Shown here piece after piece: positions 14,704 through 20,871 of a DNA stretch of 48,075 bases. This DNA is from Rhodobacter sp. (GTDB lineage: Bacteria > Pseudomonadota > Alphaproteobacteria > Rhodobacterales > Rhodobacteraceae): contig JADCDI010000089.1 of assembly GCA_020251025.1 (NCBI GenBank), positions 1 through 48,075 of the forward strand, in the 5' to 3' direction. The position numbers were made by a program, and so were the translations under genes. Below the pieces are notes generated by a model. The model saw only the letters and a list, made by a program, of their open reading frames with translations. It was not told the origin of the DNA and made no database searches. How positions within the stretch are numbered: the first letter of the stretch is position 1; every line of letters begins with the position of its first letter.

Positions 14704-15299
14704 GGTGTTACCTCGGAGGAGGGGGCGACGAAGGTCGCGACAAAGCGGTGGTTTTCGAGTAAATCCCATTCATCAGGCGCGAACGCGGAAACCTCGTGCG
14801 CCGAGATGCGAAGTCCGTTCTCTTCGAGGCGCAGACGCCGGATCTCGCCTTGCTTTGCAAACGCTGCAGGCCCGATCATAGAGGCCAGTTCGTCAAGCAT
14901 CGGACGTGAGGACACGACAAGGCAGTATCGGCGCCCATACGCTGTTCCGATCTCAACCGATGTATCGCCGACCTGGAAAAAGACCGTGCCATCCTTGGCT
15001 GTCTCGGTTGCCAGTTCACGTGCCCAGGTCTTGGTTGCTTGCCACGTCTCGGGCTGGTCGCCGTCCAGATTACCGACGAACATGTGCGCCGCCCGAAAAT
15101 CCGTGGCTGCCGCCGGGTTGTTGTTCCGATCCCAGCCTGTATTGGCGAACCATGTGATCAATGCGGGTTCCGAATGATCCGGCTCAGAGCAAATGAGGGC
15201 ATCTTTCGCTGTCTGCGCCGCCGCCAGGGTAGCTGAAAGGGCGCAGAGGCCCGCAATCGTGATAAGACCTGCTGAGGTACGGCGAGACGACACAATCAC
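14700..15299 (-). CDS. Hypothetical exported protein between sucD and sucA, 199 aa
   Basis: No family recognised. A cleavable signal peptide is likely: basic start (VSSRRTS), hydrophobic core ([17 protein letters not shown]), then AAAQ near residues 26-29. The mature part is about 170 residues with Cys in [11 protein letters not shown] and RRYCLVVSS, which could form one disulfide in the periplasm, and a Trp/Asn-rich segment ([13 protein letters not shown]). The GTG start at 15299 overlaps the sucD stop (GTGA), and its own stop overlaps the sucA start (ATGA). It is therefore translationally coupled to two TCA genes. An exported protein in this position is odd; it may be a hitch-hiking accessory gene using the suc promoter. 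Confidence 0.75.
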
Positions 15300-16180
15300 C
15301 CCCCCCTCGCCTGCATCACCGCCTGCCCCAGCCCCGCCGGGCTGTCGGCGACCACGATCCCGGCGCGCTTCATCGCCTCGATCTTGCTTTCGGCGTCGCC
15401 CTTGCCGCCGGCCACGATGGCCCCGGCGTGGCCCATGCGGCGGCCCTTCGGTGCGGTGCGGCCGGCGATGAAGCCCGCCGTGGGCTTCCAGCGGCCGCGC
15501 CGCTTCTCATCGGCCAGGAACTGGGCTGCGTCTTCCTCTGCCGTGCCGCCGATTTCGCCGATCATGATGATGGAATGCGTTTCGGGGTCGGCCAGGAACA
15601 ATTCCAGCACGTCGATGTGTTCGGTGCCCTTGATCGGATCACCCCCGATGCCCACGGCGGTGGACTGGCCCAGGCCCAGATCAGAGGTTTGCTTGACGGC
15701 CTCATAGGTCAGCGTGCCGGAGCGCGAGACGACGCCGACCGAACCCCGCTTGTGGATATGGCCGGGCATGATGCCGATCTTGCAGGCGCCCGGCGTGATG
15801 ACGCCGGGGCAGTTCGGCCCGATCAGGCGGGATTTGGAGCCTTCCAGCGTACGTTTGACCTTCATCATGTCCAGCACCGGAATGCCTTCGGTGATGCAGA
15901 CGATCAGCTCCATTCCGGCATCGATGGCCTCAAGGATCGAATCGGCGGCGAAGGGCGGCGGCACGTAGATGACGGTGGCATTCGCCCCGGTCACCGCCCG
16001 CGCCTCGTGCACCGAGTTGAACACGGGCAGGCCGAGGTGTTCGGTGCCCCCTTTGCCGGGCGTCACGCCGCCAACCATCTTCGTCCCATAGGCGATGGCC
16101 TGTTCGGAATGGAAGGTGCCCTGGCTGCCGGTGAAGCCCTGGCAGATGACCTTTGTGTGTTCGTTGACAAGGATGGACAT
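15296..16180 (-). CDS. sucD: Succinate-CoA ligase alpha subunit, 294 aa
   Basis: CoA-binding, phosphohistidine-bearing subunit of succinyl-CoA synthetase, which makes ATP or GTP from succinyl-CoA (EC 6.2.1.5). The N-terminal CoA-binding Rossmann region begins [18 protein letters not shown], and [18 protein letters not shown] and [11 protein letters not shown] follow. The active-site histidine is in [13 protein letters not shown] near residue 249. Length is standard. The gene is normally adjacent to sucC, but here 1.2 kb separates them. That interval holds a small exported-protein ORF, a diverged copy of the first 55 codons of sucD, and an antisense HigB-HigA gene. The intact sucD begins 18 bp from a palindromic operator, so it may now need its own promoter. 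Confidence 0.97.
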
Positions 16181-16197
16181 GCTGGTTCCCTAGGCTT

Positions 16198-16248
16198 GTA
16201 TCACGGCGTGATACGGAAATTGCGGGCGGATGTATCATGGCGTGATAC
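16198..16248. promoter_or_regulatory. Two tandem palindromic operators between sucD and the HigB-HigA gene
   Basis: GTATCACGGCGTGATAC at 16198-16214 is a perfect palindrome around a central G. GTATCATGGCGTGATAC at 16232-16248 is the same site with one arm mismatch. Their centres are 34 bp apart. The second ends 10 bp before the toxin-antitoxin ATG, the usual place for autoregulation by HigA or the HigBA complex. The first is only 18 bp upstream of the sucD ATG, so repressor binding could also affect sucD expression. Binding by HigA is inference from position. Confidence 0.75.
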
Positions 16249-16257
16249 AGATGGCGG

Positions 16258-16872
16258 ATGATTGTGTCGGTGAAGGACACGACGTTGGTGATGCTGCTTG
16301 CCGGGCAAGTACCCAAGCGCTTTCCGAACGACCTCGTGTCCGTTGTGGAGCGCCGGATGACGTCGCTTGTGCTGGCGCAGCGTGTCGAAGACTTGCGCTA
16401 TCCGCCGGGTCATCGGCTTGAACTGCTCAAAAGCGACAGGGCGGGGCAGCATTCCATCCGCGTCAACGATCAGTGGCGCATCTGCTTTCGCTGGCTGGAT
16501 GACGGCGCGCATGCTGTTGAACTTGTGGACTATCACCGGGAGATGACCATGGACATCCGCTTTGCCGGGCCCGTCCATCCGGGAGAGATGCTGCGGGAGG
16601 AATTCATGCTTGCGCTCGGGCTTACGGCCGGAAAGGTTGCGCGCGACATCCGCGTACCGCGCACGCGGATCGAACGGCTGGTGCGCGAGGAAACGGCGCT
16701 GACCGTGGATACGGCGCTGCGTCTGGTGCGCTATTTCCGCATGTCGGACGGGTATTGGGTGAACATGCAGGGGCTCTACGACATCAACATGCTGCACAAC
16801 GACGCCGCCTATCAGGCCAGGGTCAATGCGATTGTGCCTTTGGCGGGCAGGGATTGGGAGGATGCGGCCTGA
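16258..16872 (+). CDS. HigB-HigA toxin-antitoxin encoded as one continuous ORF, 204 aa
   Basis: Residues 1-93 are a RelE-superfamily HigB toxin, a ribosome-dependent mRNA interferase. Family signatures are VEDLRYPPGHRLELLKSDRA, QHSIRVNDQWRICFRW and the usual C-terminal end VELVDYH. Residues from M96 or M98 on are a HigA antitoxin with an XRE-type helix-turn-helix: VHPGEMLREEFML, ARDIRVPRTRIERLVREE, TALRLVRYF, YWVNMQGLYD. The toxin normally ends in VDYH followed by a stop; here the frame runs on (CAC CGG GAG ATG), fusing the two. An internal GGGAG with ATG 6 bases later could also give separate antitoxin. The gene lies antisense inside the suc operon. Both halves look intact. Confidence 0.88.
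   Translation: MIVSVKDTTLVMLLAGQVPKRFPNDLVSVVERRMTSLVLAQRVEDLRYPPGHRLELLKSDRAGQHSIRVNDQWRICFRWLDDGAHAVELVDYHREMTMDIRFAGPVHPGEMLREEFMLALGLTAGKVARDIRVPRTRIERLVREETALTVDTALRLVRYFRMSDGYWVNMQGLYDINMLHNDAAYQARVNAIVPLAGRDWEDAA
16538..16551 (+). promoter_or_regulatory. Internal ribosome-binding site for the HigA part
   Basis: GGGAG (16538-16542) is followed by in-frame ATG codons at 16543 and 16549. The second is 6 bases after the Shine-Dalgarno-like sequence. It could direct a free antitoxin of 107 aa (from residue 98 of the fusion) in addition to the full-length fusion. Whether it is used cannot be decided from sequence. Confidence 0.5.
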
Positions 16873-16903
16873 CGGATTGAGTAGTGAGACAGCGCGCATC
16901 TGG

Positions 16904-17071
16904 TTATGCCCTTTGCGCCTGCATGGTTTCCGCAACAGCACCCCTGGTTTCCGCCGTCCTGCCGACCATCCTGGTGCCATGGGCGATGGCCTGTTCGATG
17001 TGTAACTTGCCTTGGCCGTCGGCGATGCCCTGGCAGGTGACTTGGGTGGTTTCGTTGACAAGTACGGCCAT
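16904..17071 (-). pseudogene. Degenerate duplicate of the sucD 5' end
   Basis: Reads [15 protein letters not shown]... and aligns without gaps to the first 38 residues of SucD with 23 identities. The corresponding 107 bp match the intact sucD start at 83 positions by hand count. Similarity fades after about codon 40 ([10 protein letters not shown]), and the frame ends 15 codons later, without the SucD catalytic part. It begins 16 bp after the stop of the small exported-protein gene that overlaps sucC. It therefore occupies the place where the sucD start is expected in a sucC-X-sucD operon. It could be the relic of an insertion that moved the HigB-HigA gene in and displaced sucD, or an imported fragment. 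Confidence 0.85.
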
Positions 17072-17087
17072 GGAAAGGTTCCCTGCG

Positions 17088-17407
17088 TCAGTATTGCATG
17101 CCGAGCCGATTGGCGCGCGCAGATACAATCATCGCTCTAACTTCAATTCGAAGCATATTTCTGAGGCCATCAATAGCGGCCATGCTACTTGATCCCGCTT
17201 CAGCAAGTAGTGCTTGGCGCTCTGCAAAACACACTGAATCCAAGAGGACTTCCGCTAAGTCTAGCATATTGTCCATGTGGGGCTCGAAATCGACTGCCGC
17301 CTTCAAATAACAAGCGAACAAGGCCTGTCCTGCTTTGGTTTCGGCGTTTGCGATGTTTGACATTGCAAGAATGCAAATTCCAAGCGAAGGGCCAATTCGA
17401 CTACCAG

Positions 17408-17411
<4 letters not shown>
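17088..17411 (-). CDS. Small hypothetical exported protein after sucC, 107 aa
   Basis: No family recognised. A short signal peptide is likely (basic MTGSRIG, then [16 protein letters not shown] with cleavage near residue 23). The mature part is helical-looking with two Cys (FACYLKAAV and DSVCFAERQ). The GTG start overlaps the sucC stop codon (GTGA), the same coupling seen after sucD. The DNA is conspicuously lower in GC than its neighbours (roughly half GC by eye against about two-thirds) and uses rare A/T-ending codons. This suggests recent acquisition together with the adjoining sucD fragment and toxin-antitoxin gene. Confidence 0.65.
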
Positions 17412-18601
<1,190 letters not shown>

Positions 18602-19943: not shown

Positions 19944-20730
19944 ACAGGGTGCTGAAGAGGTGCCGGGCGCAGGGACCGGCCGAGCGCAAGGGGGGAACCA
20001 CTTGCGCCTGCACGCGCGGCACCTCCCGGCAGGGGCCATCGCCCCTGCCACAGCGCTGCGTTGGCATCAGGACCGGCCGGGGGCCCAAAGCCCCCGGCCA
20101 GCGCCCGCCCCGCCCCCGGCGGGCGCTTCGCCCCTGCCGGGTCGGGCGCTGGCCTCTGCTTCTCCCGGACCTGCCGGTCTGCAGGGCGCTGTCCCGCGCA
20201 GGCGGGGGAAACGCGATGCGTTTCGTGTTCCCGCCCGATGAGACGTTCCTGTGCATTACGCGACTCCCGGTCTCTCTGGCAGGGCCCATCGCCCCTGCCA
20301 AAGCGTTGCGCCGGGATCAGGACCGGCCGGGGGCCCAAAGCCCCCGGCCAGCGCCCGCCCCGCCCCAGGCGGGCGCTTTCCGCCCGCCGGGTCGGGCGCT
20401 GGCCTCTGTGTCTCCCGGACCTGCCGGTCTACAGGGCACCGTCCCGCGCGGGCGGGGGAAACGCGCTGCGTTTCCTGATCCCGCCCGAACAGGCGACAGC
20501 ACTGTCACCGCTTCAATGGCAGGGGCCATCGCCCCTGCCACAGCACAACGCCGTTATCAGGACCGGCCGGGGGCCAAAGCCCCCGGGCCAGCGCCCGCCC
20601 CGCCCATGGCGGGCGCTTTGCACCCGCCGGGTCGGGCGCTGGCCTCTGTGTCTCCCGGACCTGCCGATCTACAAGGCACCGGCCCGAGCGGGCGGGGAAA
20701 CGCGGGTCGCGCTTCCTGATCGGGAAAGCC
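19944..20730 (+). repeat. Structured repeat array, block 2: leader plus three tandem units
   Basis: A leader at about 19948-20027 resembles those at 26341-26409 and 47745-47823. Three units follow, their first stems starting at 20028, 20278 and 20518 (periods 250 and 240 bp). Each unit reads, in order: stem GGCAGGGGC/GCCCCTGCC; stem GGCCGGGGGC/GCCCCCGGCC; AGCGCCCGCC/GGCGGGCGCT and an alternative GGCGGG-GC/GC-CCCGCC pairing; GACCTGCCGGTC; and GGGCGGG...CCCGCCC enclosing GAAACGC/GCGTTTC. It lies upstream of mdh (minus) and the NnrU-family gene (plus). Open frames in it are translations of the repeat and are not called as genes. Confidence 0.9.
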
Positions 20731-20871
20731 GTTCTGGCCCGTGATGCCGCGCCGGGCGGTGTCATGGTGGATGGAAAGATCGCAGGAAAGCTGCTTATCG
20801 TCACCGGGCAGGCGCTGATTTCCAGAATCGGCATGATTGCCGCAACTGCGGCGCAGGAAGGGACGACACCC

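Follow-up and report, generated by a model that had tools for sequence, protein, structure and literature searches.

The window, by which we mean the whole 48,075-nucleotide stretch of Rhodobacter sp. DNA that was analysed, is contig C120 of a 131-contig assembly rated as 99.99% complete. It contains a 204-codon open frame on the plus strand (16258-16872) whose 204-aa product consists of a HigB-like toxin, a short bridge and a HigA antitoxin. The frame lies antisense between two minus-strand frames that we take, from their translations, to be sucD and sucC. The features of the locus, together with related pieces and junctions from other genomes, are listed in Table 1.

Table 1. Features of the sucD-higBA-sucC region and of related loci (positions are those of the window unless another locus is named)
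Feature	Position	Strand	Remarks
sucD (succinyl-CoA ligase alpha; presumed from translation)	15296..16180	-	diverges from the fusion (starts 77 bp apart); 97% identity with the sister's sucD
Palindromic operator-like copy 1, TGTATCACGGCGTGATAC	16197..16214	.	one of two exact genome matches to TGTATCAYGGCGTGATAC
Palindromic operator-like copy 2, TGTATCATGGCGTGATAC	16231..16248	.	second exact match; directly 5' of the toxin start
HigB-like (RelE/BECR) toxin half, aa 1-93	16258..16536	+	PF05015; 6f8s_B best match by sequence; P. vulgaris HigB by Foldseek
Bridge CGG GAG ATG ACC (R-E-M-T)	16537..16548	+	CGG 16537-16539 aligned to the sister's TAG; disordered in the model
GGGAG, likely ribosome-binding site for internal start ATG 16549	16538..16542	+	from the sequence; sister has TAGGAG at the same position
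HigA (XRE/HTH) antitoxin half; own start codon at 16549, TGA at 16870-16872	16549..16872	+	TIGR02607; GraA and HigA by Foldseek
Partial second copy of sucD 5' end, aa 1-44, 55% identical	16940..17071	-	between the fusion and sucC
sucC (succinyl-CoA ligase beta; presumed from translation)	17408..18601	-	98% identical to the sister's; upstream of sucD, same strand
sucC 3'-like pieces	L014:7249-7374, L126:5930-6076, L127:6424-6549		48-49% protein identity over 42-49 aa
Open junction, window	16258-16872
Open junction, L245/L249 (G1091)			toxin N-terminus not aligned
Open junction, L247 (G1173)			both halves nearly complete
Open junction, L179/L189/L250 (G934)			N-terminal half of toxin out of frame
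Open junction, L071			toxin aligned in part; DYH absent

The toxin half has the conserved domain PF05015 (aa 21-93; 52.9 bits, cut-off 27); an NCBIfam search named no family for it. The antitoxin half belongs to TIGR02607 (aa 105-180; 87.5 bits, cut-off 47.7; 89.3 bits for this half alone). Its score against the Pfam domain HTH_3 is slightly below the cut-off of 23 when the whole chain is searched (22.5) and above it for the antitoxin half alone (24.1). The toxin ends in VELVDYH and fusion codons 94-97 are CGG GAG ATG ACC, the whole junction being GAC TAT CAC CGG GAG ATG ACC ATG GAC. GGGAG stands 6 bases 5' of the antitoxin ATG at 16549, from which separate HigA could still be made. The sequence-only reading had described a toxin and an antitoxin in one frame, with VDYH running without a stop through CGG GAG into ATG ACC ATG GAC, family signatures retained on both sides and an internal GGGAG ahead of a usable start. 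The 204 open codons, the two domain matches above their cut-offs, the junction sequence and the retained start bear this description out. The locus thus has the HigB-like toxin domain and the downstream HigA-family antitoxin of a HigBA type II toxin-antitoxin system; the halves are not two separate genes, as no stop intervenes, and their arrangement in one frame, toxin domain then antitoxin domain, is that of a fused mono-gene.

The relatives at the same site indicate how this frame may have arisen. A search of seven genomes of the genus, including the window's own, at an E-value of 0.001 gave matches in four. The sister species (G003) has the same locus in the same place with 90% protein identity, and its junction reads GAC TAT CAC TAG GAG ATG ACC ATG GAC. 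The window's CGG at 16537-16539 differs from this TAG by two base changes in one codon, without a frameshift. TAG or TGA is also present in the five other loci aligned at the junction; G004 (57%) and G005 (50%), members of the genus with HigBA at the same site, have TGA. Because every other aligned locus at the site has TAG or TGA, it is simplest to suppose that the window lineage lost its stop, and from these alignments the fusion is best read as a stop-codon loss that followed the split from the sister. It had been proposed beforehand that relatives split by a stop codon would mark the fusion as an artefact. The sister is indeed split by TAG, but it differs at many further bases, which argues for a lineage-specific event and not for an artefact. 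A lineage-specific stop-loss HigB/HigA fusion is well supported in the assembly. The fusion is known from one genome of this species. Being common to relatives, which is a sign of function and not a strict requirement, does not apply to it, as the orthologous loci of G003, G004 and G005 all have a stop.

The family search gave matches at an E-value of 1e-20 in 34 of 394 genomes; 19 of the 20 rows that span both halves (E-values up to 1e-20) contain a stop, the exception being the window. The phylum search gave, among the matches listed, three both-half rows without a stop: the window, G1091 and G1173. Neighbouring HigB/HigA junctions are open through in 5 of 182 distinct stretches, a distinct junction being a distinct 180-base stretch (one place may count twice) in a set chosen by likeness to the window protein, so that these are not population frequencies. 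Where GAY-TAY-CAY was found in the junction stretch, the next codon is a stop in 146 of 161. The antitoxin lies in the toxin's frame in 95 of the 182 junctions, so a single stop loss often suffices to join the two. Three frames besides the window's are open from the toxin DYH into HigA. Two more open frames fall outside the 182. One (L248, contig C24 of G1034) has a damaged toxin part ahead of HigA; the other (L008:1363-2037, contig C79) is a second HigA locus of the sister species, in which a toxin remnant runs into HigA. The latter frame retains a HigB-like tail, and its matched stretch has no Pfam toxin match.

Other junction variants were seen. In one genus of another family, the HigB of G725 (L175) has CGA after DYH and is read for five more codons, its stop overlapping the antitoxin ATG; G1011 of the same genus (L166) keeps TGA and G934 (L179) is open into HigA. 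The three are not necessarily one locus. The window's genome also has a second, distant HigBA pair (C1:131447-131900; L002 and L003; about 35% identity) made of separate genes, in which the toxin ends DYH-GS and is followed by a stop.

Seven of the loci collected carry HigBA in antisense orientation between sucC and sucD: those of the window (15296-18601), G003, G004 and G005 (genus-relative loci L014, L126 and L127), L015, L016 and L017. Besides members of the window's genus, their hosts are three MAGs: one from Rhodobacterales, one Robiginitomaculum and one unplaced alphaproteobacterium. Six of the toxin starts lie 73-82 bp from sucD, and the one in L016 is about 2 kb away. In the genus members that have no such HigBA match (G001, G002 and G006) the sucC-sucD gap is 332-601 bp. 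In the earlier locus set sucD is nearby only in the seven named loci, and among the best matches of the order and class searches (59 loci; 390 and 385 genomes searched) the only sucD nearby is the window's own.

Pieces of sucD or sucC adjoin HigBA in four of the seven loci. A sucD 5' piece lies beside the window locus and that of G004 (L126:6209-6295), the window's piece being 77% like its own sucD and 83% like the sister's at the DNA level. Pieces like the 3' end of sucC are found between HigBA and sucC in G003, G004 and G005. These pieces point to recombination in sucC/sucD as a route of insertion or exchange. On the tree, HigBA at sucCD in the seven rows takes two changes, and none of 500 shuffles was as low; one change is found in 21% of 200 bootstrap trees. 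A single origin at this site is neither shown nor excluded by these counts. Plasmid and viral sources were considered and rejected: all 853 matching plasmid records have less than 60% protein identity, none of the 56 records matching by DNA covers 80% of the locus, and the viral contigs gave one antitoxin-only relative.

The sequence-only reading had suggested that the fusion is a stable solution for a toxin-antitoxin gene trapped inside a metabolic operon. The pair does lie between sucC and sucD, on the opposite strand, but in G003, G004, G005 and the MAG locus L017 a stop still separates toxin from antitoxin, and the palindromes there are identical or almost so. As split pairs persist at the same site, the fusion is neither needed there nor conserved, and the suggestion is supported only in part.

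Both palindromes of the window lie in the interval from the sucD start (16180) to the toxin start (16258), and TGTATCAYGGCGTGATAC has no other exact match in the 3.3 Mb genome. They occur in the same place in G003, G004 and G005 and, with a variant first copy, in L017; the palindromes of L016 are related without being the same, and the pattern used gave no match in L015. Judged by sequence and position, these operator-like palindromes upstream of the toxin are candidate HigA operators. A scan of 16100-17450 for a sigma-70-like promoter found none, although such a scan carries little weight for this kind of organism.

Among solved structures, the toxin half is most similar by sequence to GraT of P. 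putida (6f8s_B, E-value 7e-23, aa 21-93). An AlphaFold2 model built from 16 rows (mean pLDDT 81, pTM 0.43) predicts two folded domains joined by a short disordered bridge (residues 95-102 below 50), the mutual placement of the halves and their interface not being trustworthy at this pTM. Foldseek matches of the model are P. vulgaris HigB and HigA, P. aeruginosa HigA and P. putida GraTA, and the toxin half has the P. vulgaris HigB fold (TM 0.83-0.88 by target). An unpaired alignment for the model was dropped because MAFFT placed toxin-only rows on the antitoxin half; the full-length alignment A4 was built instead.

According to the available part of the GraTA report (PMC6393540), the active site lies around the C-terminal His92 of the toxin, GraA inhibits by blocking ribosome docking and not by filling the active site, and a form of GraT in which His92 is replaced by a TEV-His tail is inactive. 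The counterpart of this residue in the window, H93, is retained, and the chain now continues past it. The entries 4px8 and 4w4g (70S, post-cleavage) list a P. vulgaris HigB of 118 aa in which the terminal His aligns at position 93, so 25 residues after the His are compatible with ribosome binding. As GraA blocks docking and here a folded domain is tied to the terminal His, the fusion should hinder docking too.

The explanation that we consider best, and to which we give moderate confidence, is that the toxin stop of a higBA pair in antisense between sucC and sucD was lost (TAG to CGG), giving a self-neutralised chain and free HigA. The proposed course of events is as follows. The two-gene higBA would have lost the toxin stop after the split from the sister. 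The ribosome would then make a 23 kDa HigB-HigA chain, the HigA half of which would fold on, or stay beside, the HigB half and keep it out of the ribosomal A site. The retained GGGAG and ATG would yield some free HigA as a supplement, and HigA dimers, with or without tethered toxin, would still bind both palindromes. The toxin would always be accompanied by antitoxin and be silent unless the bridge is cut. It is plausible that the toxin is held in cis by the fused antitoxin, and the product is most likely a self-neutralised chain with some free HigA.

A possible but doubtful alternative is early decay or domestication, in which the fusion killed the toxin and the HigA half was kept to act as a repressor in the control region that sucD and higB share. 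The toxin is extended at its catalytic C-terminal His, with the antitoxin fixed to it; this His corresponds to the active-site residue whose TEV-His replacement inactivated GraT in the portion of that work cited above (PMC6393540). The palindromes are retained, as this alternative would have it, and frames open into HigA with a damaged toxin exist elsewhere (G934, G1034 C24 and L008). Profile scores point slightly the same way: on profiles built without the window or its sister, the window's toxin scores 128.9 bits (sister, 134.1) and is the lowest of 27, and its antitoxin scores 123.4 bits (sister, 129.5) and is the second lowest of 40. On the other side, 25 residues past the His in P. vulgaris HigB do not alone prevent ribosome binding, and the window retains all 20 columns of alignment A4 in which the other 15 rows agree throughout.

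Rates of change speak to the same alternative. Pairwise dN/dS between window and sister is higher for the toxin (0.23) and the antitoxin (0.16) than for sucD (0.065) and sucC (0.071), the HigBA values spanning the whole branch, perhaps mostly before the fusion. Terminal branches for window and sister are 0.073 and 0.02 in HigBA, 0.028 and 0.0078 in sucD, and 0.017 and 0.0045 in sucC (the fork holding window and sister being poorly settled in the sucC tree). The window's branch is thus 3.6-3.8 times its sister's in all three, and this equal ratio makes the extra change seem one of the whole lineage and not of the fused gene. The window departs at four sites (aa 9, 59, 119 and 132) where the sister and five outgroups do not vary; the sister departs at one invariant site (aa 126). 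Decay by substitution, as these four residues and the lower profile scores might suggest, is weakened on several counts. T at 9, S at 59, and R or H at 132 are present in other relatives, although no precedent for A at 119 was found among the listed relatives; the profiles were built from every row but those of the window and sister; sucD and sucC have the same branch ratio as HigBA; and four strict changes against one are too few. The tree branches and invariant columns give no clear sign of decay in either half, and we do not claim a relaxation specific to the fused gene.

An unlikely extension of these ideas is that a higBA lineage settled between sucC and sucD in several alphaproteobacteria, spreads there by recombination in sucC/sucD with partial copies as its traces, and has here been captured as a self-silenced HigB-HigA repressor that perhaps sets sucD expression. 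If true, an addiction module would have become a regulator of central metabolism, and its two operators would lie in the sucD upstream region, inside the TCA-cycle gene set.

It is more unlikely still that the chain is a sensor, in which a trigger such as a protease or a phage protein cuts or displaces the bridge or the antitoxin half and so frees the toxin in cis. The bridge is predicted to be disordered and fused toxin-antitoxin genes can work, some of them in phage defence according to the accessible text of the survey described below (PMC11980606), EzeT being a working example (PMC4826407, likewise in part). Against a sensor, the fusion is found in one species and is absent from its sister, and free HigA from the retained start would blunt the release. 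Very improbable, finally, is a sequencing or assembly error at a true stop codon, as the stops of the relatives at the site might suggest, since two adjacent wrong bases would be required at exactly the CGG codon, the flanking junction bases otherwise match the sister, and open junctions exist in other genomes too.

As a kind, the HigB-HigA fusion is already known. The available part of a survey of 195 fused toxin-antitoxin genes (mBio 2025, Table 2; PMC11980606) catalogues 10 prokaryotic and 2 eukaryotic HigB-HigA fusions (PF_HigB) and 17 prokaryotic and 3 eukaryotic HigB-HigA-like fusions (PF_HigB-like). Like the mono-gene modules described there, the window has a single gene with a HigB or HigB-like BECR toxin first and a HigA-type antitoxin after it; its own traits are the lineage-specific stop loss, the two-gene sister at the same site and the retained antitoxin start. 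EzeT, the single-chain zeta-type system of E. coli, also has its antitoxin in cis and a proposed origin from a two-gene operon, but its toxin is a zeta-type kinase and its antitoxin part is N-terminal (PMC4826407, in the part available). GraTA of P. putida (6f8s) has the closest solved toxin by sequence and the same toxin and antitoxin folds; it consists of two proteins, its toxin ends at the His, and its operator is centred on TAACGTTA, as given in the accessible pages of PMC6393540. P. vulgaris HigBA (4mct, 4px8, 9chl) shares both folds as well, but its proteins are separate and about 30% identical to the window's. CapRel is likewise a named fused toxin-antitoxin system. Its toxin, unlike the HigB-like half here, is of the alarmone-synthetase type and senses phage.

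The sucC/sucD site is more unusual than the fusion itself, and the most interesting aspect of the locus is this site together with the split/fused species pair. Among the papers listed in a literature search, none dealt by title or abstract opening with a toxin-antitoxin pair between sucC and sucD, which is not proof of absence. The two species form a natural before/after pair, with the same HigBA in the same place behind near-identical operator-like palindromes, split in one and fused in the other, and they allow the effect of a type II fusion on toxicity and autoregulation to be asked directly. The antisense position between the two genes of a single enzyme would gain in importance if it proved to be a repeated landing place affecting sucD expression. 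Elsewhere in the window, three imperfect GC-rich direct repeats of about 218 nt (20028-20735; spacing 250 and 240) adjoin a frame that, from its translation, is presumably malate dehydrogenase-like.
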